From Cupriavidus taiwanensis (lineage in GTDB: Bacteria > Pseudomonadota > Gammaproteobacteria > Burkholderiales > Burkholderiaceae), in the NCBI RefSeq assembly GCF_900250115.1, contig NZ_LT984804.1, positions 558,001 to 622,000 on the forward strand: a stretch of DNA of 64,000 nucleotides, given 5' to 3'. The position numbers and the translations under genes are program-made. Every line of letters begins with the position of its first letter. Within the stretch, counting starts at the first letter, position 1. The notes under the pieces are model-generated. The model saw only the letters and a program-made list of their open reading frames with translations. It was not told where the DNA came from and did no database searches. This document shows positions 30,960-53,765 of the stretch, piece after piece.

Positions 30960-32150
30960 GGATGCTCTGCACAATTAGCCGGCGGATGTGCTTGCAATGA
31001 ATCGTCGAGCCAGCGAGCATGTGGCGCATGAAACAAACTGACCTTGGACTGAACTTGTCGACCAAGCGCACCCGCAAGCGCGAATTCCTGGACGAGATGA
31101 ACCGTGTGGTGCCATGGGCCGATCTGGTGATGCTGATCGCTCCGTACGCCCCGGAAGGCAAGCGCGGCCGTCCCCCGTTCGCGGTCGAGGCAATGCTGCG
31201 CATCCACTTCCTTCAGCAATGGTTCGGCCTGTCGGACCCGGCGATGGAAGAAGCGCTGCACGACGTGCCGCTGTATCGGGAGTTCGCCGGGCTGGACAAC
31301 TGGACGGTGAGGCTGCCCGACGAGAGCACCATCCTGCGGTTCCGTCACCTGCTGGAGAAGCACAAGCTGGCCGCTCAGATCCTCGCGCTGGTCAACGACA
31401 TCCTTCGCGACAAGGGATTGATGCTGCGCGCGGGCACGGTGGTGGACGCGACACTGATCAGCGCACCGAGTTCGACCAAGAATGGGTCGGGCGAACGCGA
31501 CCCAGAGATGCACCAGAGCAAGAAAGGAAACCAGTGGTATTTCGGCATGAAAGCGCACATTGGCGTGGACGCCGAAAGCGGGCTGGTGCACACGGTGCGG
31601 GGCACGGCGGGCAAGGTCAACGACGTGGTTGAGGGCAACAGCCTGCTGCATGGAGAGGAAACCGACGCGTTCGGCGATGCGGGCTATCAGGGCGTGGAGA
31701 AGCGTCCGGACGCGCGGGCGGGCGTGAACTGGCACGTAGCGATGAAGCCAGGCAAACGTCGCGTCCTGGACCAAAGCAAACCACTTGGCGCGCTCGTCGA
31801 TCAGGTCGAGCGAATCAAGGCGGGCATCCGGGCCAAGGTCGAGCATCCGTTCCGGGTCATCAAGCGGCAGTTCGGCTACACCAAGGTCCGCTATCGAGGG
31901 CTGAGGAAGAACACCGCGCAACTCATGACCTTGTTCGCACTGTCCAACTTGTGGATGGCGCGCGGCAAACTGCTGGCTGCCGGGGCATGAGCGCGTTTCT
32001 GGCTCACGCCGATGCCTCGCGCGCAGCCCGCGAATGCTGCTTCGCGCGTGCGAGATAGCTTCGCTCCGAGCTGATAGGTTGGCGTCGTGGCGCATTCAGC
32101 TTCCTGTTAAACGGCCAAGCACACTCGATTCGCGTTTGTGCAGAGTATCC
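30960..32150 (+). mobile_element. Complete IS5-family insertion sequence, about 1.19 kb
   Basis: The ends are inverted repeats GGATGCTCTGCACAA (left) and GGATACTCTGCACAA (reverse complement of the right end), with one mismatch over 15 bp. The element holds one intact transposase gene and is flanked by TTAA on both sides. The left end lies 22 bp past the AraC terminator hairpin. Intact ends, frame and target duplication suggest a recent and possibly active insertion. The IS name cannot be assigned without a database comparison. Confidence 0.88.
31019..31990 (+). CDS. IS5-family DDE transposase
   Basis: An intact 323-residue transposase with an N-terminal DUF772-type domain (VVPWADLVMLIAPYAPEG, GRPPFAVEAMLRIHFLQQWF) and a DDE catalytic domain. 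Likely acidic residues are the Asp of VVDATLISAPS, the Asp of FGDAGYQGVEK and the Glu of KVEHPFRVIKRQFG. It catalyses cut-and-paste movement of the element that encloses it. No frameshift or internal stop is present. Confidence 0.92.
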   Translation: MWRMKQTDLGLNLSTKRTRKREFLDEMNRVVPWADLVMLIAPYAPEGKRGRPPFAVEAMLRIHFLQQWFGLSDPAMEEALHDVPLYREFAGLDNWTVRLPDESTILRFRHLLEKHKLAAQILALVNDILRDKGLMLRAGTVVDATLISAPSSTKNGSGERDPEMHQSKKGNQWYFGMKAHIGVDAESGLVHTVRGTAGKVNDVVEGNSLLHGEETDAFGDAGYQGVEKRPDARAGVNWHVAMKPGKRRVLDQSKPLGALVDQVERIKAGIRAKVEHPFRVIKRQFGYTKVRYRGLRKNTAQLMTLFALSNLWMARGKLLAAGA

Positions 32151-35310: not shown

Positions 35311-36450
35311 TCACCCCATCCCCACCACGCTAGACAGCAACAGCTTCACCAGCACCGCCTGCCGCGTCGCCCCCGTCTTGGCAAAGATCCCCCGCAGATG
35401 CGCCCGTGCGGTGTTCTTCTTCACGCCCAGCCGCGCCGCGGCTTCATCGAGCGTCAGCCCGTCGACCATCAGCAGGGCCAGTTCGATTTCGGTAGGCGTG
35501 AGGTGGAACAGCTTGCGCAGGCTGGCGTGGGTGTTGCGCGGCGAGCCCGCGGGATCGCGGATAAAGACCGCCACCGCGGGGCGGCGGGCCTTGTCCTCGG
35601 TGCGGTAGCTGAGCGGGATGGGCCGCACCAGCACGCTCAGCGGCGTGGGCGCGGCGGGCCGGCTGAGCGTGGTGACTTCGCTGCGGGGCGTGGCCAGCGC
35701 ATGGGCCTGCGCGGCGCTCTCCAGAATCTTGCGGAACCTGCGGTTCTCCATCGGGCAATGCGCGTGCAGCGCGCCGTCCGCCAGGTAGAGGCCGTCGCGG
35801 GCGCGCAGCAGGCGGCCGGCAACGTCGTTGGCGCGGATGCAGCGGCCGTGCTCGTCGAGGATGACCGTGCCCACCTGCATGCGGTCGACCGCATCGGCGT
35901 AGAGCGACCGTTCGGAGGCCAGCACGTCGAGCGCGGCATGCAGGTCGACGGCGCGTTTCAGGTGGGGCAGCAGGTCCTGCAGCAGTGCCTTGTCGGCGCT
36001 GCCGAAGTCCTGTCCCGCCGCGGTGCGGCTGATGAACAGCGCGCATTCGACGCCATCCGGCGTGACCAGGTTGACGGCCAGGATGTAGCGCAGGCCGAGC
36101 GGCTGCAGGTATTGCGCATAGAACGGATGGGCCAGCCAGCCGGATTCGCCGAATAGTTCGTCGGCACTGAAGAGCCGGTCGGGGTGCAGGTCCAGGAACG
36201 GGCACAGGGCGTAGTACTGCTCGCTGTATGAAGGCTCGCCGGGAAGATGAGGGCCGTAGTCGGAGGCGTTGACGATCAGGCCCGGGCGGTCGGTGGCGGG
36301 GTGGCGCAGCACCAGCGTGACGAACGTGGCGGCCAGTCGCTGGCGGAGGCTTTCGAGGAAGCCGGCCCAGGGCACGGTTTCGGTGGGGCCCTGGTAGAGC
36401 TGGGCGAGCAGGGCGCTAAGCTCGGCGGCAGGGAGGGAAGCTGGCAGCAT
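35311..36450 (-). CDS. LuxR-family regulator (TeiR-like), copy 1
   Basis: A 379-residue regulator. The C-terminal LuxR helix-turn-helix is in about 315-375: LTPTEIELALLMVDGLTLDE, then KKNTARAHLRGIFAKTG. The N-terminal ~300 residues match those of the second copy at 47.3-48.5 kb (YQGPTETVPW, HPATDRPGLIVNASD, LLPHLKRAVDLH), so the two are paralogs. Length and layout resemble TeiR, the LuxR-type steroid-responsive regulator of Comamonas. The frame extends upstream into a palindromic repeat, so the ATG at 36450 is preferred. It probably controls genes of the nearby steroid-type cluster; this is inferred. Confidence 0.85.
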   Translation of the reverse strand: MLPASLPAAELSALLAQLYQGPTETVPWAGFLESLRQRLAATFVTLVLRHPATDRPGLIVNASDYGPHLPGEPSYSEQYYALCPFLDLHPDRLFSADELFGESGWLAHPFYAQYLQPLGLRYILAVNLVTPDGVECALFISRTAAGQDFGSADKALLQDLLPHLKRAVDLHAALDVLASERSLYADAVDRMQVGTVILDEHGRCIRANDVAGRLLRARDGLYLADGALHAHCPMENRRFRKILESAAQAHALATPRSEVTTLSRPAAPTPLSVLVRPIPLSYRTEDKARRPAVAVFIRDPAGSPRNTHASLRKLFHLTPTEIELALLMVDGLTLDEAAARLGVKKNTARAHLRGIFAKTGATRQAVLVKLLLSSVVGMG

Positions 36451-36484
36451 GATCGAGGCGTTTCGGTGGACTGCCGGTTTGCTT

Positions 36485-36612
36485 CCCTCTCCCGCTTGCG
36501 GGAGAGGGGCAGGGGGTGAGGGCAGGCGGTGGGCAAGCACGGTGCGCCATCACTTCGTGGATGCTCCGGCCCTCACCCCCAACCCTCTCCCACGGTGTGG
36601 GAGAGGGGAGCG
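36485..36612. repeat. Paired palindromic (REP/BIME-like) element
   Basis: Two hairpins, CCCTCTCCCGC-TT-GCGGGAGAGGG at 36485-36508 and a similar CCCTCTCCCAC/GTGGGAGAGGG at 36583-36606, flank a middle part. That part contains GGGGGTGAGGGC and its complement GGCCCTCACCCCC, so the whole can fold into a larger structure. The middle shares ACTTCGTGGATGC with the elements at 50.3 and 60.0 kb. Confidence 0.85.
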
Positions 36613-36712
36613 TCTGCGTGAGGCGGTAGCAAGCACTTGCGCTTTCGCGTGCCCGAGCCTGGACCTCATCCCATCGTACCTGCCCCTGCCGCCGCCTCAT
36701 CGTCCATTCGGC

Positions 36713-38635
36713 CTAAGGCCTATCCCGCAGCCACGCCACGATCCGCTCGGCGGCCTGTTCGGGGCTGTCGCCGGTGGTGTCGATGCGGATTTCCGGATGC
36801 TCCGGCGCTTCGTAGGGCGAGTCGATGCCGGTGAAGTTCTTCAGCTCGCCTCGGCGCGCCTTGCGGTACAGGCCCTTGGGGTCGCGCTGCTCGGCCACGG
36901 CCAGCGGCGTGTCGATGAAGACTTCGATGAACTCGCCGTCACCGGCCAGTGCGCGCGCCATCTCGCGTTCCGAGCGGAACGGCGAGATGAACGACACCAG
37001 CACGATCAGCCCCGCGTCCAGCATCAGCCTGGCGACTTCGGCCACGCGCCGGATATTCTCGATGCGGTCGGCTTCGGAGAAGCCCAGGTCCTTGTTCAGG
37101 CCATGGCGCACGTTGTCGCCATCGAGCAGGTAGGTGTGGTGCCCCAGCGCGTGCAGACGCTTTTCCACCAGATTGGCGATGGTGGACTTGCCCGCGCCGG
37201 ACAGGCCAGTGAACCAGACGATGCGCGGTGACTGGTGCTTGAGCGCGGCATGCGCGCGGCGGTCGACGTCGATGGCCTGCCAGTGGACGTTCTGCGCCCG
37301 GCGCAGGGCAAAGTGCAGCATGCCGGCGCCGACCGTGTTGTTGGTCAGGCGGTCGATCAGGATAAAGCCGCCCAGCTCGCGGTTGCGCGTGTACGGGTCG
37401 AAGGCCACCGGCTGGTCCAGGTGCAGGTTGCACACGCCGATCTCGTTCAGCTCCAGCGTGCGCGCGGCCAGGTGCTCCAGCGTATTGACGTTGACCTTGT
37501 ACTTGGGCTGGGCCACGGTCACGCCCACGGTGCGCGTACCGAGCTTGAGCAGGTAGGGGCGCCCGGGCAGCATGGCGTCCTCGTTCATCCATACCAGCGT
37601 CGCTTCGAACTGATCGGCCACCGCCGGCGGGTCTTCGGTGCAGGCCAGCACGTCGCCGCGGCTGATGTCGATCTCGTCGGCCAGGGTCAGCGTCACCGCC
37701 TGGCCGCGCATGGCCTGCTCGCATTCGCCGGCGGCGCCGACGATGCCGGCCACGCGGCTTTCGCGGCCGGAGGGCAGCGCGCGCACGCGGTCGCCACGCC
37801 GGACCACGCCGGCGCTGACGGTGCCGGCAAAGCCGCGGAAGTCCAGGTTGGGGCGGTTGACCCACTGCACCGGCAGCCGGAACGACTCGTCCTGCGCGGG
37901 CACGTGGTCGATCGGCACGCTCTCGAGGTAATCCATCAGCGTCGGGCCCTGGTACCACGGCGTATTGGCGCTGGCTTCGGTGATGTTGTCGCCGCGCAGC
38001 GCGGACATGGGGATGCAGACGATATCGGTCAGTCCGATCTGCCGCGCGAACTCGCGGTATTCCTTCTCGATGCGCGTATGGACCTCGCGCGAGTAGCCGA
38101 CCATGTCCAGCTTGTTGACGGCCAGCACCACGCGCCGGATGCCCAGCGTCGAGACCAGGTAGCTGTGGCGGCGGGTCTGGGTCTGCACGCCGCGGCGCGC
38201 ATCGACCAGCAGGATGGCCAGGTCGGCGGTGGAGGCGCCGGTGACCATGTTGCGGGTGTACTGCTCGTGCCCGGGCGTGTCGGCGACGATGAACTTGCGC
38301 TTGTCGGTGGCGAAGAAGCGGTAGGCCACGTCGATGGTGATGCCCTGTTCGCGCTCGGCGGCCAGGCCGTCCACCAGCAGCGCGAAGTCCAGGTCCTCCC
38401 CCTGCGTGCCCATCTTCTTCGAGTCGGCCTCGAGCTGCGCCAGCTGGTCTTCGAACAGCATCTTCGATTCATACAGCAGCCGGCCGATCAGCGTGCTCTT
38501 GCCGTCGTCGACGCTGCCGCAGGTGATGAAGCGCAGCAGGCTCTTGCTTTGCTGGGCACGGAGATACCGGGCGACCTCGTTCTGCGCGCCGGTGGGTTGC
38601 GCCATCGCCGGCGCGTTGTCGATCAGGGTTTGCAT
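36713..38635 (-). CDS. cysNC: Bifunctional sulfate adenylyltransferase subunit 1 / adenylylsulfate kinase
   Basis: A 640-residue fusion. The N-terminal ~430 residues are the CysN GTPase: GSVDDGKST at 40-48, [12 protein letters not shown] and NKLDMV. The C-terminal ~190 are an APS kinase with P-loop GLSGAGKST near 477-485. With CysD it activates sulfate to APS, and the kinase part then phosphorylates APS to PAPS. It starts one base inside the cysD stop (TGATG), so translation is coupled. Assimilatory sulfate reduction in most betaproteobacteria uses APS directly, so the kinase domain points to PAPS use by a sulfotransferase, such as the one 2.2 kb away. Confidence 0.94.
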
Positions 38636-39531
38636 CAGAAGTATCCCTCCTGCTTTTTCTTCTCCATCGAACCGGCCGAATCGCTGTCGATCAGCCGTCC
38701 CTGGCGCTCCGAGGTGGTCGCCCGCAGCATTTCCTGGATGATGCCGCCGAGCGTGTCGGCGTCGCTCTCGATCGCGCCGGTGAGCGGGTAGCAGCCCAGC
38801 GTGCGGAAGCGCACCTTGCGCAGCTGCGGGGTTTCGCCCGGACGCAGTGGCAGGCGTTCGTCGTCGACCATGATCAGGGTGCCGTCGCGTTCGACCACGG
38901 GCCGTTCCCTGGCGAAGTACAGCGGCACGATCGGGATCTCGTTCAGGTAGATGTATTGCCAGATGTCGAGCTCGGTCCAGTTCGACAGCGGGAATACGCG
39001 CAGGCTCTCGCCCTTGCGCTTGCGCGTGTTGTACTGGCGCCAGAGTTCGGGGCGCTGCATCTTTGGGTCCCAGCGGTGCTGCGCGGTGCGCACCGAGAAC
39101 ACGCGCTCCTTGGCGCGGGACTTCTCTTCATCGCGGCGCGCGCCGCCAAAGGCGGCGTCAAAGCCGTAGTGGTCCAGCGCCTGCTTCAGGCCCTGCGTTT
39201 TCCACACATCGGTGTGGACGGCCGAGCCATGCTCGTGCGGGCTGATATTGCGCGCCAGCCCTTCGGGGTTGATGTGCACGCGCAGGTCCAGCCCGAGCCG
39301 GGCCGCGGTCTGGTCGCGGAACGCGATCATCTCGCGGAACTTCCAGGTGGTATCGACATGCAGCAGCGGGAACGGCGGCCGCGCGGGATGGAAGGCTTTC
39401 ATCGCCAGGTGCAGCATCACCGCGCTGTCCTTGCCGATCGAATAGAGCATGACGGGGTTCTCGCATTCCGCCACCACCTCCCGCATGATGTGGATGCTCT
39501 CGGCCTCCAGTTGCTCCAGGTGGGTCAACAT
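38635..39531 (-). CDS. cysD: Sulfate adenylyltransferase subunit 2
   Basis: A 298-residue ATP-pyrophosphatase fold protein. The PP-loop is SIGKDSAVM at 31-39; the family hallmarks [18 protein letters not shown] and [15 protein letters not shown] are present. CysD makes APS from ATP and sulfate, with CysN coupling GTP hydrolysis. The true start is the ATG at 39531 with an AAGGAGAC site; the longer frame runs into the promoter region. It is the first gene of the cysD-cysNC pair and is divergent from the DUF1214-sulfotransferase genes, with two copies of the cluster's 18-bp motif between them. Confidence 0.94.
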
Positions 39532-39640
39532 CGGGGTCTCCTTTTTTACGCTTGGTCCTCTGGGTTTGCCGGTGCCGCGCAGGGTTGCCGCGGTCGTCCG
39601 GCATGGGCCAAAAGGTAGCGAGCCGGGGGCCTGCGCCACT

Positions 39641-39658
39641 TCGTCCGGGCGGACTAAG
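39641..39658 (+). promoter_or_regulatory. 18-bp cluster motif, site A
   Basis: TCGTCCGGGCGGACTAAG, between divergent cysD and DUF1214 starts (109 and 103 bp away). Matches the motif at 39684, 47045, 47124, 48974, 50708 and 61730. Inside it GTCCG-GG-CGGAC is a perfect dyad. Confidence 0.55.
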
Positions 39659-39683
39659 AAATCGCGGGCCGCGGCGCGCATTT

Positions 39684-39701
39684 CCTAGTCCACCCGGACG
39701 A
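39684..39701 (-). promoter_or_regulatory. 18-bp cluster motif, site B
   Basis: TCGTCCGGGTGGACTAGG on the minus strand, inverted relative to site A with 25 bp between them; 16 of 18 positions agree with site A. It lies 60 bp before the DUF1214 start. The A/B pair makes a long inverted repeat. Confidence 0.55.
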
Positions 39702-39761
39702 GGAAGGAGCCGCCCTGCGCTGGGTATCGTTGCTGCGCCGACGAACCACGGGAGCAGGCAG

Positions 39762-40883
39762 ATGGCGATATCCGCCGAAGACCAATTGCTGAGCGGCCAG
39801 ACCTGGGCCGAGTTTTGTGATGTGCTCAAGCGCAGCGGGCAGCAGATCCTGCGCCCGGAAGCGCCGACCGACGCGCTCACGCGCGCCGAGGGCTTCCGCT
39901 ACCTGAGCCGCTTGCTGCGCATTGCGCTGGAAATGCACGTGGAATTCGCCGATCCGGCATTCCCCGGTTTCTTTTCGCCGTCGCACGAGACCGCCAAGAT
40001 CGGCGCCGACAATCCGGACAACCTGTACCGCTATGCGCGGCTGGACGGCAGCGCGGCGTACCGCATCCGCGGACGGCGCGGCACGGTGGCGTACCTGAGT
40101 TTCGGCACGCAGAAGGGCGGCTACGAAACCGACGGGCGCATGGTCCAGACCGGCTTTATCGACAGCAACAAGCTTGCCGTCGAGCAGGACGGCAGTTTCG
40201 AGATCACCCTCGGCGCCCAGCCGCAACCGGGCAACTGGGTGCGCATGGAGCCGGCCACCAATGCCCTGGTGGTGCGCCAGACCTTCCTCGACCGCAAGGC
40301 AGAAACGCCCGCCGAATTGCAGATCGAGCGCATCGACGCCCACGGCAAGCCGCCGGCGTTGAGCGCGGAGCGCCTGCACGCCGGACTGCTGCGCGCCGCG
40401 GGTTTTGTCGAGGGCACCGCGCGCATCTTTGCCGACTGGGCCCAGGGGTACGGCGGCCACGTCAACGCCCTGCCGCCGGCGGACCAGGCGGTTTGCCAGG
40501 CGGCCGGCGGCGATCCCAACATCTACTACTACCACTCCTGCTGGCGGCTCGCGGACGACGAGGCGCTGGTGGTCGAGGTCGACCGGGTGCCGGACTGCGA
40601 GTTCTGGAACTTCCAGATCAACAACTACTGGATGGAATCGCTCGACTACCGCTACCACGACATCTGCCTCAACAAGCACGGTGCCCGGCTCAACGCCAAC
40701 GGAGGCGTCACCGCGATCCTCAGCGCGCGCGACCCGGGCCTGCCCAACTGGCTCGAAACCGCGGGCCATCACCACGGCACCATGTGCTGGCGCTGGGTCG
40801 GCGCGGCGCAGCCGTCGCATCCGCGCACGCGCGTGGTCAAGCTGGCATCGCTCGGTGAACATTCCAGGGAGAACAACGCATGA
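39762..40883 (+). CDS. DUF1214-domain protein
   Basis: A 373-residue protein without signal peptide. The C-terminal ~130 residues look like the DUF1214 domain (YYYHSCWRLADDEALVVEV, FWNFQINNYWMESLDY, HHHGTMCWRW). The function of this family is not established. The start at MAISAEDQL has GGAGCAGG upstream. Its last four bases (ATGA) overlap the sulfotransferase start, so the two are made together. DUF1214 genes commonly sit in steroid or lipid catabolic clusters of actinobacteria and sphingomonads, which fits this neighbourhood. Confidence 0.8.
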   Translation: MAISAEDQLLSGQTWAEFCDVLKRSGQQILRPEAPTDALTRAEGFRYLSRLLRIALEMHVEFADPAFPGFFSPSHETAKIGADNPDNLYRYARLDGSAAYRIRGRRGTVAYLSFGTQKGGYETDGRMVQTGFIDSNKLAVEQDGSFEITLGAQPQPGNWVRMEPATNALVVRQTFLDRKAETPAELQIERIDAHGKPPALSAERLHAGLLRAAGFVEGTARIFADWAQGYGGHVNALPPADQAVCQAAGGDPNIYYYHSCWRLADDEALVVEVDRVPDCEFWNFQINNYWMESLDYRYHDICLNKHGARLNANGGVTAILSARDPGLPNWLETAGHHHGTMCWRWVGAAQPSHPRTRVVKLASLGEHSRENNA

Positions 40884-42049
40884 ATGCCATCAACGTGGAA
40901 CGCCTGCTGGCGCAGGCGAGCGAGCGGGCCGGCGGCCTGGCTGACTTCGGCCCGGGCAACTATCGCGAGGCGCTGCGGGTGCTGTCGGACTCGCTGGCAC
41001 GCGAGGCCAACCTGTCGCCGCAAGGCGCGCACATGCTGGCAGGCAAGCTGCAGGCCCAGCTGGTGAACCGGCTGGTGGTCCAGGACTACTGCCGGCGCCA
41101 TCCGGAGATCCTGCAGGAACGCGTGGAAGACCCGCTGGTCATCGTCGGCCTGCCGCGCACCGGCACCACGCTGCTGCAGCGCATGCTGGCCACCGACGCG
41201 CGTTTCAGCTCGGCGGCGTGGTGGGAGACCCGCTATCCGGCCCCGCTGCCGGGCGAGGACGTGCGCGACCCCGGCCGGCGCATCGCCGCGGCGCGCGAGG
41301 AAGTCGCGCAGATGATCCAGCTCATCCCGGACATCCTCGCGATCCACCCGCTCGACGCGATGGCCGCCGACGAGGAATTCATGCTGATGGAGCATTCGTT
41401 CCTGTGCGCGATGGATTCCTACGCCAATGTGCCGGCCTACACCGGCTGGCTGGCGCGGCAGGACCACACCGAGGTCTATGCCTGCCTGAAGACCATGCTG
41501 CAGTTCCTGCAGTGGCAAAAGCGCCAGCGCGGTGAGACCTCGGCGGTGCCGGCGCGGCGCTGGGTGCTGAAGACCCCGCAGCACCTGCATACGCTGGAGG
41601 TGCTGTTCCGGGTGTTCCCCGGCGCGCAGGTGGTGCTGACCCACCGCGATCCGCTGCAGACCATTCCGTCGATGGCGAGCATGGCGCATACGCTGTGGAA
41701 GCTGTACGCCGACGATCCAGACCCCGCCACGGCCGGCCGCCAGTGGAGCGAACAGATGCGGCGCGGCACCGATCACGCCATGGCCGTGCGCGACGCCATG
41801 CCCGCCGAGCGCTTCCTCGACGTGCGCTTCGAGGATACGGTGCGCGATCCCTTCGGCGTGGCGCAGGCGGTCTACCGCTTCGCCGGCATGCCGCTGACCG
41901 AGGCCGCGCGCGCCGGCATGTGGGCCTGGATGGAAAGCAACCCGCGCAACCAGCGCGCGGCGCACGCCTACACGCCGGAACGGTTCGGGCTGAGCCAGGC
42001 GCAGCTGGAGCGCGATTTTGCCGGTTACCGCGCGCGGTATCTTCAATGA
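40880..42049 (+). CDS. PAPS-dependent sulfotransferase family protein
   Basis: A 389-residue protein of the Sulfotransferase_3 type. The PAPS 5'-phosphosulfate loop is GLPRTGTTLLQ starting at 90; the 3'-phosphate region is VVLTHRDPLQTIPS in the second half. It transfers sulfate from PAPS to a hydroxyl or similar group; the acceptor is unknown. Its start overlaps the DUF1214 stop (ATGA). The PAPS-making cysD-cysNC pair is directly divergent, and an SDR follows after a palindromic element. In this cluster a steroid, terpenoid or CoA-linked intermediate is a plausible acceptor. Confidence 0.88.
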   Translation: MNAINVERLLAQASERAGGLADFGPGNYREALRVLSDSLAREANLSPQGAHMLAGKLQAQLVNRLVVQDYCRRHPEILQERVEDPLVIVGLPRTGTTLLQRMLATDARFSSAAWWETRYPAPLPGEDVRDPGRRIAAAREEVAQMIQLIPDILAIHPLDAMAADEEFMLMEHSFLCAMDSYANVPAYTGWLARQDHTEVYACLKTMLQFLQWQKRQRGETSAVPARRWVLKTPQHLHTLEVLFRVFPGAQVVLTHRDPLQTIPSMASMAHTLWKLYADDPDPATAGRQWSEQMRRGTDHAMAVRDAMPAERFLDVRFEDTVRDPFGVAQAVYRFAGMPLTEAARAGMWAWMESNPRNQRAAHAYTPERFGLSQAQLERDFAGYRARYLQ

Positions 42050-42080
42050 GCTGTGGCCTCCCAACTCCCGCTTGCGTACT

Positions 42081-42199
42081 CCCTCTCCCGCTTGCGGGAG
42101 AGGGTTGGGGAGAGGGCGGGAGTATCCACGAAGTAAAGGCTGTCGCTATTTCACACGCCTGCCCTCTCCCCCGGCCCCTCTCCCGCAAGCGGGAGAGGG
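42081..42199. repeat. Paired palindromic (REP/BIME-like) element
   Basis: Hairpins at 42081-42104 (CCCTCTCCCGC-TT-GCGGGAGAGGG) and 42176-42199 (CCCTCTCCCGC-AA-GCGGGAGAGGG form) flank a spacer with TCCACGAAGT, the reverse complement of the ACTTCGTGGA core of the other elements. It separates the sulfotransferase and SDR genes. Confidence 0.85.
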
Positions 42200-42256
42200 G
42201 AGCACACAATTGGCCTTTCTGACAGGCTCTCAAGAAATCGAAACAGGAGACAACCC

Positions 42257-43048
42257 ATGCTGCTGAAAGACAAGATCGTCATCGTATCCGGCATCGGCCC
42301 CGGACTGGGCATCAAGCTCGCTGTAGAAGCGGCGCGCGAGGGCGCCCGCGCCGTGGCGATCGCCGCGCGCACCGCCGCGAAGCTGGACGAGGCGCAGGCC
42401 CGCATCGACGAACTGGGCGCGGACTGCGAAGTCCTCAAGGTGGTGACCGACATCACCGACCGCGCCCAGTCGCGCCACCTTGCCCACGAGACCCTGCGCC
42501 GCTTTGGCCGCATCGACGCGCTGGTCAACAGCGCCTTCCAGCACGGCAATTTCCCGGAGCCGGTGGAAGCCGCCGACCTGGACGTGTGGCGCCAGGTGTT
42601 CGACACCAATGTCTTCGGCACCATGACGCTGACGCAGGAGGTGGCGGCGCTGATGAAGCCCCAAGGCGGCGGCGCCATCGTGATGATCAACACCCAGGCC
42701 ACGCGCAAGCCGATGCCGGGGGAATCCGGCTACGCGGCGTCCAAGGGCGCGCTGGCGGTGGCGGTCAAGTACCTGGCACGCGAGCTGGGGCCGCATGGCA
42801 TCCGCGCCAACAGCATCTTCATGGGCTGGATGTGGGGCGCGCCGGTGCAGGGCTATGTGCGCCACGCCGCCGCCGAGCAGGGCGTGAGCGAAGACGCGGT
42901 GATGGCGCCGGTGACCGCCCAGATCGCGCTGGGCCGCATGCCGAGCGACGACGACTGCGCGCGCGCTGCGCTGTTTCTCGTGTCAGACTACGCCAGGGCC
43001 ATCACCGGCGCCTCGCTCGACGCCAATGGCGGCGATTTCATGCCCTGA
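42257..43048 (+). CDS. SDR-family oxidoreductase
   Basis: A 263-residue short-chain dehydrogenase. The cofactor motif is GIGPGLG (residues 12-18), unusual in having Pro, and NSA replaces NAG. The active-site Tyr and Lys are in YAASKGA; at the usual Ser position (13 before Tyr) there is a Thr (MINTQATRK). A Thr there may still work. The GGAGAC ribosome site is clear. It follows the sulfotransferase and precedes the DHH protein on the same strand, so it is likely part of the same catabolic set. Substrate unknown. Confidence 0.85.
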   Translation: MLLKDKIVIVSGIGPGLGIKLAVEAAREGARAVAIAARTAAKLDEAQARIDELGADCEVLKVVTDITDRAQSRHLAHETLRRFGRIDALVNSAFQHGNFPEPVEAADLDVWRQVFDTNVFGTMTLTQEVAALMKPQGGGAIVMINTQATRKPMPGESGYAASKGALAVAVKYLARELGPHGIRANSIFMGWMWGAPVQGYVRHAAAEQGVSEDAVMAPVTAQIALGRMPSDDDCARAALFLVSDYARAITGASLDANGGDFMP

Positions 43049-43073: not shown

Positions 43074-44081
43074 ATGACACGCTACTTTGCCTTCAACGGC
43101 GACGCCGACGGCCTGTGCGCGCTGCAGCAGCTGCGCCTGGTGCAGCCGGGCGAGGCCGCGCTGGTTACCGGCGTCAAGCGCGATATCCGCTTGCTCGAGC
43201 GCATCGACGCGCGCGCCGGCGATACCGTGACGGCGCTCGACATCTCGCTCGAACAGAACCGCGACGGGCTGCTGCGGCTGCTTGGCGCCGGCGTCCGGGT
43301 GGACTACTTCGACCACCACCACGCCGGCGCGCTGCCCTCGCATGCCGGGCTGCGCGCGCATATCGACGAGGGCGCGCAGGTCTGCACCAGCATCCTGGTC
43401 GACCGCCACCTGGGCGGGCGCCACCGGCGCTGGGCGGTCACCGCCGCCTTCGGCGACAACCTCGGCGAGGTCGCGCGCGGCATGGCGGCGCAGCTGGGGC
43501 TGGACGCGCGCCAGACGGCGGTGCTGGAACGGCTGGGCACCTGCCTGAACTACAACGCGTACGGCGAGTGCGTGGCCGACCTGCATTGCGATCCCGGCGA
43601 ACTGGCGCAGCACATGCTGCCCTTCGCCGACCCGCTCGACTTCGCCGCGCAGTGCGCCACCTACACGCTGCTGTGCCAGGGCTACGAGGACGACATGGCG
43701 CGGGCGCGCCGGCTGTCGCCCGTGCACGAGGTGCCCGGCGCCGCGCTTTTGGTGCTGCCCGACGCGCCGTGGGCGCGGCGCGCGGTCGGCGTGCTGGCCA
43801 ACGAGCTGGTGCGCGGGCGGCCCGGCGATGCCATCGGCCTGCTGTCGCCCAGGTCCGGCGGCGGCTTCGTGGTCAGCGTGCGGGTGCCGGCGCACAGCGT
43901 GACCGGCGCCGCCGACTTCTGCCGCGCCTTCGACACCGGCGGCGGCCGGCGCCTGGCCGGCGGCATCAACCACCTGCCCGACGCCGACGTCGAGCGCTTC
44001 ACGCGCAGCTTTGCCGACTGCTTCGGCGCGCCACTCAGCGCGGCGGGACAAACTCCGTCACCTCCAGCTCGAAGCCGGTAA
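43074..44081 (+). CDS. DHH-superfamily phosphoesterase-like protein
   Basis: A 335-residue protein with the DHH pattern: FNGDADGLCALQQL near the start, VDYFDHHHAGALPSH around 83-97 as the DHH motif, and GGGRRLAGGINHL near the C-terminus as the DHHA1 motif. Members are Mn-dependent phosphoesterases acting on short RNAs, cyclic dinucleotides or similar. It begins 25 bp behind the SDR. Its last 47 bp overlap the end of the RibBA-like gene on the other strand. A direct role in the catabolic cluster is not obvious. Confidence 0.82.
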   Translation: MTRYFAFNGDADGLCALQQLRLVQPGEAALVTGVKRDIRLLERIDARAGDTVTALDISLEQNRDGLLRLLGAGVRVDYFDHHHAGALPSHAGLRAHIDEGAQVCTSILVDRHLGGRHRRWAVTAAFGDNLGEVARGMAAQLGLDARQTAVLERLGTCLNYNAYGECVADLHCDPGELAQHMLPFADPLDFAAQCATYTLLCQGYEDDMARARRLSPVHEVPGAALLVLPDAPWARRAVGVLANELVRGRPGDAIGLLSPRSGGGFVVSVRVPAHSVTGAADFCRAFDTGGGRRLAGGINHLPDADVERFTRSFADCFGAPLSAAGQTPSPPARSR

Positions 44082-46153: not shown

Positions 46154-46969
46154 TCAGGCCTGCAACGCGAACGACGGCGCGCTGCCGGCGGCAATGCCCT
46201 GCGCGCGCGCCAGCGCCGCGTGCGCGGCCTGCGCGTGCGGCAGGATCCAGAACTGGCCGGCCGAGACGCCATCCAGGATCACGCGCGCGGCCTGGTCTGC
46301 GGTCAGGCCTGCGGCGATGCCCGTGCGCAGCGCGCCGTTCATCTGGTGCACCTCTTGCGGCGCGGCGCCGTCCAGGTCCGCCGCGATGCGGGTGGCAACC
46401 GGGCCGGGGCAGACCACCGACACCTTGATCGGCAGGCCCGCCGCCTGCAGCTCCAGCGCCAGCCCTTCGCTCAGCGCCACCACGCCCTGCTTGGACAGGG
46501 TGTAGGGCGCCAGCCAGGGCCCCACCGCGAGGCCCGCCATCGACGCTACGTTGACGATATGCCCCGAGCCCTGCGCCGCCATACGCGGCACGAAACAGCG
46601 CAGCGCATGCAGCACGCTCCACAGGTTGACGCGCATGACCTTGTCGAACACTTCGGGCGGCAGTTCCCAGCAGCGTCCGGTGGCGAGCACGCCGGCGTTG
46701 TTGAACAGCAGGTCGACGCGGCCCAGCTGCCGGAAGCTTTCGTCGCACAGGTGCGCGATCTGCCGCGCGTCGGCGACGTCGGTGGGCACGGCGACGACGC
46801 TCGCGCCGTCGCGTGCCAGCGCCGCGCGTGCGGCTTCGAGCGCTTCGGCGTCGATATCGGCCAGCGCCAGCGCATAGCCTTGCGCGGCCAGCGCGTGCGC
46901 CAGCGCCAGCCCGATGCCGCCGGCTGCGCCGGTGATCACTGCGGCCTGCTGCCGCGGGTTTGCCGCCAT
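46154..46969 (-). CDS. SDR-family oxidoreductase
   Basis: A 271-residue classical SDR: TGAAGGIG for cofactor, FNNAGV, and catalytic Ser, Tyr and Lys in VASMAGLAVGPWLAPYTLSK. The start at MAANPRQQ has an AGGAG site. It is the first gene of a minus-strand unit with the esterase and RibBA-like genes, and is divergent from the second LuxR regulator. Two copies of the 18-bp motif lie in that divergent gap. It probably oxidises a hydroxyl group of the cluster's substrate or an intermediate. Confidence 0.88.
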   Translation of the reverse strand: MAANPRQQAAVITGAAGGIGLALAHALAAQGYALALADIDAEALEAARAALARDGASVVAVPTDVADARQIAHLCDESFRQLGRVDLLFNNAGVLATGRCWELPPEVFDKVMRVNLWSVLHALRCFVPRMAAQGSGHIVNVASMAGLAVGPWLAPYTLSKQGVVALSEGLALELQAAGLPIKVSVVCPGPVATRIAADLDGAAPQEVHQMNGALRTGIAAGLTADQAARVILDGVSAGQFWILPHAQAAHAALARAQGIAAGSAPSFALQA

Positions 46970-47044
46970 GGTGAAGATCTCCTGAAAACGGCGGCGTCCA
47001 TCGCCGCGCATGGCTCCTTGTAGCGGCGGCGCGGCGCGCGGGCA

Positions 47045-47062
47045 TCGTCTGTTTGGGTAAGG
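47045..47062 (+). promoter_or_regulatory. 18-bp cluster motif, site C1
   Basis: TCGTCTGTTTGGGTAAGG, 75 bp upstream of the divergent SDR start. The left 12 positions fit the consensus; the right part is one base short. Confidence 0.45.
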
Positions 47063-47123
47063 AGGCCCCTGCGCCACGATTGCATAGGGGTTTGCCCTTG
47101 GCGGGCGGGCATGGGTCTGTCCT

Positions 47124-47141: not shown

Positions 47142-47348
47142 TGTTTGCGCCGCCGCCGCGTGACGATGGGCCTGTCCCGCGGGACTAGTCCGGCCGGCGT
47201 GCGTGGCCGGGCTGCCTAGGGCAAACCATGAAGGCGGGGGCCCAGCCGCGACCCCTTTGCCGTCCCTATAATCGGGGCACAAAAAAGAGGGCCACAGAGC
47301 CCGCACAAGCCAGCGGCCCGGCTCGTCCGGAGCGCTGAGCACGCCACA

Positions 47349-48548
47349 ATGGAGACAGAGGAAATGCTGATGGAGGTTAGCCAGAGCCAGGCGGCCGCAC
47401 ACCTGTTCGCGCAGGCGACGGTGTCGCTGTCGGAATTCAGCGCATTGCTGGGCAATATCTACCAGGGCCCGATGGAGCAGGTGCCATGGGGCAAGGCGCT
47501 GGAGCAGATCCGGCGCCAGCTCAATGCCAATTACGCCACGCTGATCCTGCGCTCGCCGGCCACCGATCGTCCCGGGCTGATGATCAACGCGTCCGAGCAT
47601 GGCTCGACCCTGCCGGGCGAGACCTCCTACAACAACTACTACTACGCGCTGGACCCGTTTATCGGGCTGCCGTCGGACCGGGTGGTGACCATCGACGAGC
47701 ACGTCGGGCCCGGCATGTGGTGCAAGAGCGAGCTGTACCTGCAGTTCCTCAAGGATGTCGGCATCCGCTACATCCTGGGTGCCGACCTGCGCACCGACGA
47801 CGGCGTGGAATGCCGCTTCCGCGTCTGCCGCGACCATGACGGCCCCGACTTCTCCGCCGCGGACAAGGCGCTGTGCACCTCGCTGCTGCCGCACCTGAAG
47901 CGCGCGGTGGACCTGCACTCGCGTCTCGACGTGGTCGAGTCGGAACGTACCGTCTATGCCAGCGCCATCGACCGCATGCTGGTCGGCATGGTGATCCTGG
48001 ACGAGTCGGGCGCCATCATCAAGACCAATGCCGCCGCCGATGAAATCCTCGGCGCCAAGGATGGCATTCGTGTCGCCAAGGGCGGGCTTGACGTCGAGTA
48101 CGGCCAGGAGAACCGCAAGTTCCAGCGTTTGCTGCGCCAGGCCATGATGGGCCACCTCGGCACAGCGCCGGCGCTGATGGAGGCGATGTCGATCACGCGC
48201 CCGTCGGGCAGCGCCAGGCTGGGCGTGCTGATCCGCACTATCCCGCTGAGCGAGTGGTCCGAGGACAACCGCAAGCGCCCCGCCTGCGTGGTGTTTATCC
48301 GCGACCCCGAACGCCGTTCGCAGGCCTCGCACGAGGTGGTGCGCCAGCTGTTCGACTTCACCCCGGCCGAGACGCAGCTGGCGCTGCAGCTGGCCAACGG
48401 GCTCACGCTCGATGAAGCCGCGGACGAACTCGGCATCAGCAAGAACACCGCGCGCGCGCACCTGCGCGCGATCTTCTCCAAGACCGGCGTGACCCGCCAG
48501 GCCACGCTGGTGCGCATGCTGCTGAGCAGCGTGATCTCGCTCGGCTAG
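47349..48548 (+). CDS. LuxR-family regulator (TeiR-like), copy 2
   Basis: A 399-residue regulator with a C-terminal LuxR helix-turn-helix (FTPAETQLALQLANGLTLDE and SKNTARAHLRAIFSKTG) and a long N-terminal sensor region. It is a paralog of the protein at 35.3-36.4 kb, with near-identical HTH segments. It resembles TeiR, the LuxR-type steroid-responsive activator of Comamonas, in size and layout. The start may instead be 47364 or 47370, as AGAGGAA lies just before the latter. It sits in the middle of the catabolic cluster beside copies of the 18-bp motif and is my best candidate for the regulator that binds them. Confidence 0.87.
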   Translation: METEEMLMEVSQSQAAAHLFAQATVSLSEFSALLGNIYQGPMEQVPWGKALEQIRRQLNANYATLILRSPATDRPGLMINASEHGSTLPGETSYNNYYYALDPFIGLPSDRVVTIDEHVGPGMWCKSELYLQFLKDVGIRYILGADLRTDDGVECRFRVCRDHDGPDFSAADKALCTSLLPHLKRAVDLHSRLDVVESERTVYASAIDRMLVGMVILDESGAIIKTNAAADEILGAKDGIRVAKGGLDVEYGQENRKFQRLLRQAMMGHLGTAPALMEAMSITRPSGSARLGVLIRTIPLSEWSEDNRKRPACVVFIRDPERRSQASHEVVRQLFDFTPAETQLALQLANGLTLDEAADELGISKNTARAHLRAIFSKTGVTRQATLVRMLLSSVISLG

Positions 48549-50707: not shown

Positions 50708-50725
50708 GCTAGTCCCAACAGACGA
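50708..50725 (-). promoter_or_regulatory. 18-bp cluster motif, site D
   Basis: TCGTCTGTTGGGACTAGC on the minus strand, 67 bp before the GTG start of the HsaA-like gene. Agrees closely with sites A and B in the right half (GGACTA). Confidence 0.5.
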
Positions 50726-52010: not shown

Positions 52011-53765
52011 ATGAGCCAGAGCAGAGCGCGCATGCAGCCCGGCGAATTTGACGTGGTGGTGGTCGGCTCCGGCGCCGGCGGCATGCTGGCCGCCTGCCGC
52101 GCCGCCGACCGCGGCCTGTCGGTAGTGGTGCTGGAGAAGAGCAGCCAGTACGGCGGCACCTCGGCGGTGTCCGGCGGTGGTATCTGGATTCCGCTGAATC
52201 ACCATATCGAGCCGGCGGGCGGGCAGGACGACTACGCCAGTGCGCTGGAATACGTGCTCGCCTGCACCGGCGAGCACGGCGACCCGCAGCGCATCCGCGC
52301 CTACCTGGAGCAGGCGCCGCGCATGCTGCAGTACCTGGAGCAGCAGGCCGGCGTGCGCTACTACACCCTGCCGCGCTACGCCGACTACTTCCAGAAGCTG
52401 CCGGGGGCGATGCCGGGCTACCGCGCGCTCGACCCGATGCCGTTCGACGGCGCGCGGCTGCGCGAAGAGTTCGACCGGCTGCGGCCGCCGTCGCCCGGCA
52501 CGCTGGTGGGCGGGCGCGTGGCCGTGACCTCGGGCGAGGCGCACGCGCTGCTGTGCCGCTCGCCCGGCTGGTTCGGGCTGGCGCTGCGCGAGTTCGCCCG
52601 CTACTGGCTCGACCTGGGCTGGCGCCGCAAGACCCGGCGCGATCGCCGCCTCACGCTCGGCAACAGCCTGGTCGGCGGCCTGCGGCGCGCGATGATGGAT
52701 CGTGCGATCCCGCTGTGGCTCGATACCGCGCTGCAGGACCTGATCGTCGAGGACGGCGCCGTGCGCGGCGTGCGCGCCGTGCAGGACGGCCGCGTGGTCG
52801 AGATCCGCGCGCTGCGCGGCGTGATCCTGGCCGCGGGCGGCTTCGAGCGCAACCAGGCCATGCGCGAACAATACCTGCCGCAGCCGACCCGGGCCGCCTG
52901 GAGCGCGACGCCGCCGAACAATACCGGCGACGCCATCCGCGCCGCGCAGGCGGCCGGCGCCGGCGTGGCGCTGATGTCGCACGTGTGGGGCGCGCCCACG
53001 CTGCAGGTGCAGGGCGAAGAGAAGCAGCGCGCGCTGTTTATCGAGCGCGCCATGCCGGGCTGCCTGGTGGTGAACGGGCAGGGCCGGCGCTTCGTCAACG
53101 AGGCCGCGCCGTACTCCGAGTTCGTGCCGGCGATGTACCGCGACCACCAGCAGAGCGGATGCAGCGTGCCGGCCTGGATGGTGTTCGATGCCACCTTCCG
53201 CCACAAATACCCGTGCGGGCCGATCCTGCCGGGCTCGGTGATGCCGGACCGCAGCATCCCGGCCAGCCTGTCCGGCATCCTGGTGCGCGCCGACTCGCTG
53301 GCGCAGCTGGCGCAGAAGATCGGCGTGGATGCCGAGGGCCTGGCCGGCAGCGTCGCGCGCATGAACGACTACGCCGCCACCGGCGTGGACGCCGAGTTCG
53401 GCAAGGGCGACAACCTGTTCGACACCTACTACAGCGACCCCGCGGTGCGGCCCAACCCCTGCCTCGCGCCGATCGGCAAGGCGCCGTTCTACGCGGTGCG
53501 GCTCGATGCCGGCGATATCGGCACCAAGGGCGGCCTGGTCACCGACGCCAGCGCACGCGTGCTGCGCGATGACGGCAGCGCCATCGCCGGCCTGTTCGCG
53601 ATCGGCAATACCAGCGCCTCGATGATGGGCACCAGCTATCCCGGTGCCGGCTCCACGCTGGGCCCGGCGATGACCTTCGGCATGATCGCCGCGGACGTGA
53701 TTTCGCAGCATGCGCGGCAGCCCGCCGCCACGCACCCCGCTCAACCTGTACAGGAGGCTCTATGA
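52011..53765 (+). CDS. 3-Ketosteroid delta1-dehydrogenase-like FAD enzyme (KstD/TesH type)
   Basis: A 584-residue FAD enzyme: GSGAGG at 19-24, EKSSQYGGTSAVSGGGIWIP, and the C-terminal GTSYPGAGSTLGPAMTFG. The latter matches the KstD active-site motif in which Tyr and Gly polarise the C3 ketone. A RYADYF segment near 120 corresponds to the second catalytic Tyr region. KstD removes hydrogens from C1-C2 of 3-ketosteroids. A GAGGA site precedes the ATG, 22 bp behind the HsaA-like gene; the stop overlaps the flavin reductase ATG (ATGA). Activity on a non-steroid cyclohexenone cannot be ruled out. Confidence 0.86.
   Translation: MSQSRARMQPGEFDVVVVGSGAGGMLAACRAADRGLSVVVLEKSSQYGGTSAVSGGGIWIPLNHHIEPAGGQDDYASALEYVLACTGEHGDPQRIRAYLEQAPRMLQYLEQQAGVRYYTLPRYADYFQKLPGAMPGYRALDPMPFDGARLREEFDRLRPPSPGTLVGGRVAVTSGEAHALLCRSPGWFGLALREFARYWLDLGWRRKTRRDRRLTLGNSLVGGLRRAMMDRAIPLWLDTALQDLIVEDGAVRGVRAVQDGRVVEIRALRGVILAAGGFERNQAMREQYLPQPTRAAWSATPPNNTGDAIRAAQAAGAGVALMSHVWGAPTLQVQGEEKQRALFIERAMPGCLVVNGQGRRFVNEAAPYSEFVPAMYRDHQQSGCSVPAWMVFDATFRHKYPCGPILPGSVMPDRSIPASLSGILVRADSLAQLAQKIGVDAEGLAGSVARMNDYAATGVDAEFGKGDNLFDTYYSDPAVRPNPCLAPIGKAPFYAVRLDAGDIGTKGGLVTDASARVLRDDGSAIAGLFAIGNTSASMMGTSYPGAGSTLGPAMTFGMIAADVISQHARQPAATHPAQPVQEAL

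Follow-up and report, generated by a model that had tools for sequence, protein, structure and literature searches.

Why would a gene cluster with the features of steroid catabolism also encode enzymes that activate sulfate? The question is raised by a 64,000-nucleotide stretch of the Cupriavidus taiwanensis genome (the window; C2:558001-622000, C2 being one of three contigs in a genome of 7.0 Mb), in which genes for ATP sulfurylase and adenosine 5'-phosphosulfate (APS) kinase are divergent from a sulfotransferase operon. An earlier note on this DNA had proposed that 3'-phosphoadenosine 5'-phosphosulfate (PAPS) is made here for the sulfotransferase, and that sulfation of a steroid, a terpenoid or an intermediate is a regulated step of catabolism. 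Overall, that interpretation was supported. The gene content described below suggests that sulfate attachment is an undescribed part of bacterial steroid use, and we put at roughly 0.6 the probability that one sulfotransferase in a regulon for steroid catabolism is supplied by a PAPS cycle of its own, complete in itself.

Gene organization and the predicted PAPS cycle

The genes that had been named in the divergent arrangement were all present. On the minus strand (36713-39531) lie cysNC (36713-38635), whose product is a fusion of the large subunit of ATP sulfurylase with APS kinase (1091 bits to the CysN/APS-kinase fusion model, cutoff 715), and cysD (38635-39531), which encodes the small subunit (575 bits to NF009214, cutoff 413). 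The GTPase of CysN and the APS kinase are found in one chain, and the kinase P-loop is intact. On the plus strand (39762-43048) are the genes for a DUF1214 protein (39762-40883; Pfam 30.9 bits, cutoff 25), a PAPS-dependent sulfotransferase of the Sulfotransfer_3 family (40880-42049; 142.9 bits, cutoff 27), whose start overlaps the DUF1214 stop, and a short-chain dehydrogenase (SDR; 42257-43048; 365 bits to NF005909, cutoff 258). The gene list of the earlier note lacked the next gene on this strand, encoding a DHH/DHHA1 phosphoesterase (43074-44081, open frame from 43026).

The families to which these proteins belong outline a cycle. CysD and CysN would convert sulfate to APS with ATP, and the kinase domain of CysNC would phosphorylate APS to PAPS. 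The sulfotransferase would then move the sulfo group from PAPS onto a hydroxyl of a steroid-derived compound, and the DHH phosphoesterase, or CysQ in a second architecture described below (type B), would clear the inhibitory by-product 3'-phosphoadenosine 5'-phosphate (PAP) to AMP.

Sulfur assimilation is encoded separately

CysD and CysN are generally enzymes of assimilation, and the cysD-cysNC pair could be housekeeping genes that stand beside the sulfotransferase by chance. Contig C1 of the same genome was found to encode a second CysD and a 434-residue CysN frame (47-48% identical) that has no kinase domain, together with a CysH showing the paired cysteines (CC and CxxC) that are typical of APS reductases. 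With a CysH of the APS reductase type and a kinase-less CysN on C1, assimilation should need no PAPS. The premise of the earlier note had been that betaproteobacteria usually reduce APS directly, with PAPS needed mainly for sulfotransferases. The genes of the window are thus not the only sulfate activation set, and the C1 cysD-cysN-cysH set led us to rule out housekeeping assimilation as their role. In 78 of 80 related loci the pair has stayed with the sulfotransferase, and putative regulatory boxes face both operons, which also contradicts a chance association; we regard such an association as highly improbable.

In the family sample of 299 genomes, APS kinase (E 1e-40) is present in 140. In every one of the 43 genomes that carry the sulfotransferase, an APS kinase forms part of a long frame of CysNC type on the same contig, within 17 kb of the sulfotransferase in 42; in the remaining genome, G298, the module spans contig ends.

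A further APS kinase is found in the same C. taiwanensis genome on the 0.6 Mb contig C3. It lies near a 251-residue sulfotransferase frame that was matched in two pieces (C3:329459-334016), and the two are possibly a Nod-factor sulfation set.

Conservation of the module in two architectures

The earlier note had also called for a survey of relatives. The main sample comprised the best 80 of 197 sulfotransferase relatives from one scan of named genomes, each with up to 10 kb on either side (1.6 Mb in total). These loci come from ten genera (Cupriavidus, Ralstonia, Paraburkholderia, Pandoraea, Burkholderia, Collimonas, Pseudomonas, Halopseudomonas, Comamonas, and Aromatoleum), but many are closely related and they are not 80 independent cases. 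Among the matches listed, the closest named relatives of the sulfotransferase were from Cupriavidus, with a top identity of 96%.

The neighborhood proved to be conserved across the ten genera. Both cysD and cysNC were each found in 78 of the 80 loci and occurred together in 77; locus L029 breaks off within the cysD side, L083 starts within cysNC, and L032 shows neither gene. The P-loop was kept in all 78 CysNC matches, and all 80 sulfotransferases have the two PAPS-binding motifs, the 5'-phosphosulfate loop and the 3'-phosphate-binding Arg-x7-Ser. DUF1214 was present in all 78 loci carrying cysD, and in 78 of the 79 loci with a delimited DUF1214 frame it directly precedes the sulfotransferase gene, adjoining or overlapping it. 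The sole exception is L091 from Aromatoleum, in which a SnoaL gene stands between the two. An SDR gene is near the module in most of the 80 loci.

Two architectures were distinguished. Type A, that of the window (62 loci), has the DHH phosphoesterase in all 62 loci and a CysQ-like protein in one; type B (16 loci), with all genes in one direction, has a CysQ-like protein in all 16 and the DHH phosphoesterase in none. This exchange of two unrelated candidate PAP phosphatases is the strongest argument from sequence for a working PAPS cycle.

More distant relatives keep parts of the arrangement. In family genomes G101 and G177, whose sulfotransferase is 50% identical, cysD-cysNC lies approximately 10-15 kb from DUF1214-sulfotransferase on one stretch. 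Plasmid-borne matches to the sulfotransferase were all below 60% identity. On Sphingomonas and Novosphingobium plasmids a DUF1214 gene is 5-7 kb from the relative (48-49% and 42-43% identical to that of the window, respectively), and on a Mycolicibacterium plasmid a 33% identical relative is followed by an SDR gene and a gene unrelated to DUF1214.

Several other genes accompany the module. A small SRPBCC (polyketide cyclase-like) protein is encoded with it in 53 of 62 type A and 16 of 16 type B loci (for example L030, L041, and L082). The Aromatoleum locus has a TauE/SafE sulfite exporter gene between cysNC and DUF1214 (L091:7422-8207), with TauE relatives in two type A loci. The two halves of the module are separated in Pseudomonas guariconensis by a frame of 938 residues that gave Tc-toxin-type and RHS repeat matches (L071:5896-8712).

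Linkage of the module to KshA and steroid catabolism

To the right of the module, the window holds genes for a luciferase-type monooxygenase, an acyl-CoA dehydrogenase, a KstD-like flavoprotein (52011-53765, plus strand; 577 bits to the 3-oxosteroid 1-dehydrogenase model, under the cutoff of 788), an AMP-binding ligase, and SnoaL proteins. Past the window end follow genes for an HsaC-like dioxygenase (299 bits to the HsaC model, under the cutoff of 450), a CoA transferase, a thiolase, an MMPL transporter that has a sterol-sensing-domain match, and KshA (254 bits to KshA_C, above the cutoff). With KshA, HsaC-like, and KstD-like genes in one region, this contig has 9,10-seco steroid gene content. 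KshA, HsaC-like, KstD-like, and CoA transferase genes likewise occur together in the 9,10-seco steroid clusters of Proteobacteria as a passage of PMC4810484 describes them; the main text of that paper, which also reports that Cupriavidus necator ATCC 17699 grows on testosterone and not on cholate, has no word starting with "sulf".

The association with KshA extends to the genomes sampled. Of the 299 family genomes, 43 carry the sulfotransferase (E 1e-60) and 55 carry KshA (E 1e-25); KshA was present in 43 of 43 genomes with the sulfotransferase versus 12 of 256 without it. For a further test, 49 of the 80 named loci were chosen and 47 genomes searched at E 1e-40, and all 47 have KshA. The two sets overlap by at least three genomes (G667, G671, and G681 agree with G213, G251, and G087, respectively, in the coordinates of KshA). 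In 15 of 16 family genomes compared, the two genes are on the same contig, 26-52 kb apart. A class sample of 369 genomes, which is sparse for co-occurrence, gave six genomes with the sulfotransferase (E 1e-60) and four with KshA (E 1e-50), three being common to both.

Of the acceptors that had been proposed, a steroid, a terpenoid or an intermediate, the tie to KshA in these overlapping sets (43/43 and 47/47) narrows the class to steroids; the sulfation step itself we still infer.

The MMPL transporter gene (L103:140-2659) directly precedes kshA, and a relative of it stands beside KshA in ten Burkholderia stretches.

A shared, putative regulatory box and the likely acceptor

Two motif copies had been noticed between the divergent operons, and both are present, one facing each operon. 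In the form used here the box is a directional 16-base pattern, TAGTCC-N4-GGACGA. It occurs at 39641-39656 on the minus strand, facing cysD-cysNC, and at 39686-39701 on the plus strand, facing the DUF1214-sulfotransferase operon, and each copy is followed after 23 nucleotides by a -10-like hexamer (39612-39617, minus strand; 39725-39730, plus strand). A first, shorter motif with one mismatch allowed was dropped as unspecific, with 6 hits against 27 for its control, and a match to it at 43293, inside the DHH gene, was taken as chance.

In the 1.6 Mb of the 80 loci, the box with its last G left open was found 116 times (115 ending in GA) and the reversed pattern 3 times. It precedes DUF1214 in 53 of 62 type A loci and is paired in 40 of them. 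Of 110 distinct sites, 73 have a TAnnnT hexamer beginning 22 or 23 nucleotides past the box and 2 have one at another distance, over the 45 nucleotides examined. Such spacing would fit an activator overlapping the -35 region. A candidate is the 409-residue LuxR-type regulator encoded behind cysNC (35311-36540, minus strand; GerE 22.6 bits, just under the cutoff of 23.5), of which a relative was found in 61 of 62 type A and in none of 16 type B loci. It is probable from these patterns that a LuxR-type activator turns on both operons from the box, where it would bind in a class II-like position before the -10 element.

Throughout the 7.0 Mb genome the exact box, last G open, occurs 5 times and its reversed control 6 times, a count that is not unusual. 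Four of the 5 sites are gathered in a 48 kb part of C2, where they lie at cysD, DUF1214, the hsaC-like gene, and kshA; only the last two are independent, because the motif was defined from the cysD and DUF1214 sites. The box precedes kshA, with 22-nucleotide spacing, in all five Cupriavidus and Ralstonia genomes examined (the present one, three more Cupriavidus, and G087, which shares the coordinates of the Ralstonia soli locus L056), and in several Pseudomonas loci it is also found before genes of the KstD-like and LuxR types. The same box precedes core steroid genes in Cupriavidus and in some Pseudomonas.

The tie to KshA and the shared box lead us to consider a steroid the likely acceptor of the sulfotransferase. 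The acceptor might instead be an envelope lipid, a polysaccharide or a signal molecule whose sulfation is induced by exposure to steroids. Such a role would suit the nearest solved structures, 2zq5 and 2z6v, both uncharacterized and of mycobacterial origin, 2zq5 being Stf1. Rv3529c of Mycobacterium tuberculosis, named as the Stf1 sulfotransferase, is reported in a passage of PMC8882603 to affect host signalling. A non-steroid acceptor would, however, leave the module tied to a ring-degradation enzyme, KshA, and, in Cupriavidus, sharing its box with kshA and the hsaC-like gene, and we think it quite improbable.

A candidate PAP phosphatase of the DHH family

CysQ is the usual PAP phosphatase, and a representative of the CysQ-like proteins of type B loci scored 296 bits, over the CysQ equivalog cutoff of 228.8. 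For the product of 43074-44081, the evidence came from its predicted structure and its conserved residues. The AlphaFold2 model (predicted local distance difference test score 93.6) has the DHH/DHHA1 fold, and its top match by Foldseek was a proven PAP phosphatase (E 8e-13). Asp10, Asp12, Asp56, Asp80-His81-His82, and Asp128 were invariant in an alignment of 39 sequences, but residue 8 is Asn, not the metal-contacting His of the archaeal enzyme described below. A Pseudomonas relative matched DHHA1 at 6e-4 (20.7 bits, under the cutoff of 25.9), and phmmer of the window's protein against solved structures returned nothing meaningful. The Foldseek match, MtPAPP of Methanothermococcus, is a DHH-family enzyme that acts on PAP and whose gene lies close to those for ATP sulfurylase and APS kinase, according to a passage of PMC10322725; the window's protein resembles it in the DHH-DHHA1 fold and in its sulfate activation neighbors. 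On the strength of the model, the motifs, and the exchange with CysQ between the two architectures, we regard the product of 43074-44081 as a candidate PAP phosphatase.

In public records many of the DHH relatives are named "acetyltransferase"; one is called "putative phosphoesterase" and another "DHH family phosphoesterase".

Observations that weigh against the proposed PAPS cycle within a steroid regulon

Several findings speak against the reading that a dedicated PAPS cycle serves a steroid-catabolic regulon. Where the box is concerned, it stands before DUF1214 in only 1 of 16 type B modules, the hsaC-like site of C. taiwanensis is without a hexamer at the usual spacing, and the 20 kb surrounding the best KshA match of each of 10 Burkholderia genomes, assigned to that genus because their coordinates agree with those of named loci, contained no exact box. 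The closest site in these Burkholderia KshA stretches has one mismatch and is 8.7 kb off, while the Burkholderia modules have retained the box; ten further stretches from these genomes gave no exact box and a single site with one mismatch. For Burkholderia, it is genome content only that links the module to steroids.

The association of genes also has gaps. Twelve genomes of the family sample have KshA and lack the sulfotransferase (two with weak KshA hits, and one, G296, with LuxR-cysNC-cysD reaching the contig end), which indicates that the module is not needed for every such pathway. Sulfotransferase and KshA are on different contigs in 28 of the 43 family genomes, drafts included. Three of the six sulfotransferase-bearing genomes of the class sample have no KshA at E 1e-50; the sulfotransferase matches in these are 34-39% identical, one of them within a 2538-residue frame. 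The Sphingomonas, Novosphingobium, and Mycolicibacterium plasmid stretches have no annotated cysD or cysNC, and five genomes inspected (G280, G275, G216, G062, and G056) have cysD-cysNC with no sulfotransferase or DUF1214 nearby.

The remaining points concern the DHH protein. It gave no Pfam match at E 0.1, and RecJ structures scored equally well in a second structural comparison of its model. It is 12% identical to MtPAPP, and its Asn8 replaces the metal-contacting His6 of that archaeal enzyme, which, as described in the passage cited, serves sulfate reduction and not sulfation (PMC10322725).

What sulfation might accomplish

One use of a steroid sulfate would be conjugation, in which a steroid or a toxic phenolic or catecholic intermediate is sulfated for solubility, for retention or export, or for detoxification, and is later desulfated elsewhere. 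Animal sulfotransferases are generally known to act on steroids in this manner, sulfatases of the PF00884 family are encoded elsewhere in the genome (four complete matches and two partial), and KshA genomes that lack the module would be expected if its function were accessory. Within the steroid stretch, searched for the PF00884 fold only, no such sulfatase was found. Moreover, the place that DUF1214 keeps beside the sulfotransferase, with an SDR near in most loci, resembles a multi-enzyme step, and a full PAPS supply would suggest flux above a trace. Conjugation, the main competitor of the proposals that follow, appears unlikely to us.

A different use is known from biosynthesis. In curacin CurM and the olefin synthase (OLS), a PAPS-dependent sulfotransferase activates a hydroxyl, and sulfate is lost as a double bond forms, as described in part of PMC3903477. 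The CurM/OLS sulfotransferases are domains of biosynthetic synthases; that encoded in the window, in contrast, is predicted to be free-standing and lies among catabolic genes. On three Planktothrix plasmids, a stretch 30-31% identical to the window's sulfotransferase coincides with genes that are annotated as type I polyketide synthase. Dehydratases are among the proteins with a SnoaL fold. Together with the CurM/OLS precedent, the absence of a PF00884 sulfatase from the stretch and the company of SDR and, in type B, SnoaL genes led us to consider that sulfate might act as a leaving group that helps to eliminate an unreactive hydroxyl, with the SDR, and SnoaL where present, as partners. We offer this tentatively, by analogy.

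Slightly more doubtful is a fuller version, in which steroid catabolism would contain a sulfation-elimination step: PAPS might be spent to make a ring or side-chain hydroxyl a leaving group for opening of the skeleton, with DUF1214 as an unrecognized partner enzyme and a PAP phosphatase dedicated to the step. The DUF1214 model aligned at 71-74% identity with the solved 6ans, an uncharacterized protein of Burkholderia cenocepacia, and strong matches in a fold search were confined to 6ans and uncharacterized Vibrio proteins. Removal of a ring hydroxyl in steroid catabolism has a described case in SteC of Comamonas testosteroni, which acts at C12 and is presented as a dehydratase in PMC13101464, a paper that nowhere uses the word "sulfotransferase".

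The earlier note knew of no described pathway of this kind, and we likewise found none: searches combining sulfotransferase with steroid or bile-salt degradation, KshA, DUF1214, and cysNC returned, among the matches listed and with few subscription papers covered, no description of the module. No paper in the literature searched has both DUF1214 and a sulfotransferase. The idea of a published "sulfotransferase-like" protein of bile-acid degradation had no support among the matches listed, and PMC6895838, PMC12239570, and PMC3068626 had no match to the searched terms.

A related gene does appear in the M. tuberculosis cholesterol-catabolism gene list, which includes Rv3529c to Rv3531c (PMC6429209). 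Unlike the window, the list passage of that paper places no PAPS genes beside the sulfotransferase. The presence of Rv3529c-Rv3531c in the list suggests a wider role of the sulfotransferase, and the C. taiwanensis module provides a lead for this mycobacterial gene. The occurrence of a conserved gene set for a PAPS cycle in genomes that bear KshA, across ten genera, points to a missing reaction, and gives a testable role both to a DUF1214 protein with a solved relative and to the DHH proteins so often named "acetyltransferase".

Further sites and genes in the window

A second LuxR-type regulator is encoded within the steroid stretch (47349-48548, plus strand; GerE 29.8 bits). Three boxes with one mismatch were recorded by pattern. 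That at 36700-36715 (minus strand), before the LuxR-type gene behind cysNC, may be chance, as may that at 50710-50725 (plus strand), before the acyl-CoA dehydrogenase and KstD-like genes, which has no hexamer at the usual spacing. The third, at 47172-47187 (minus strand), precedes an SDR gene at 46154-47077. To the left of the steroid stretch lies a DDE transposase gene (31019-31990).

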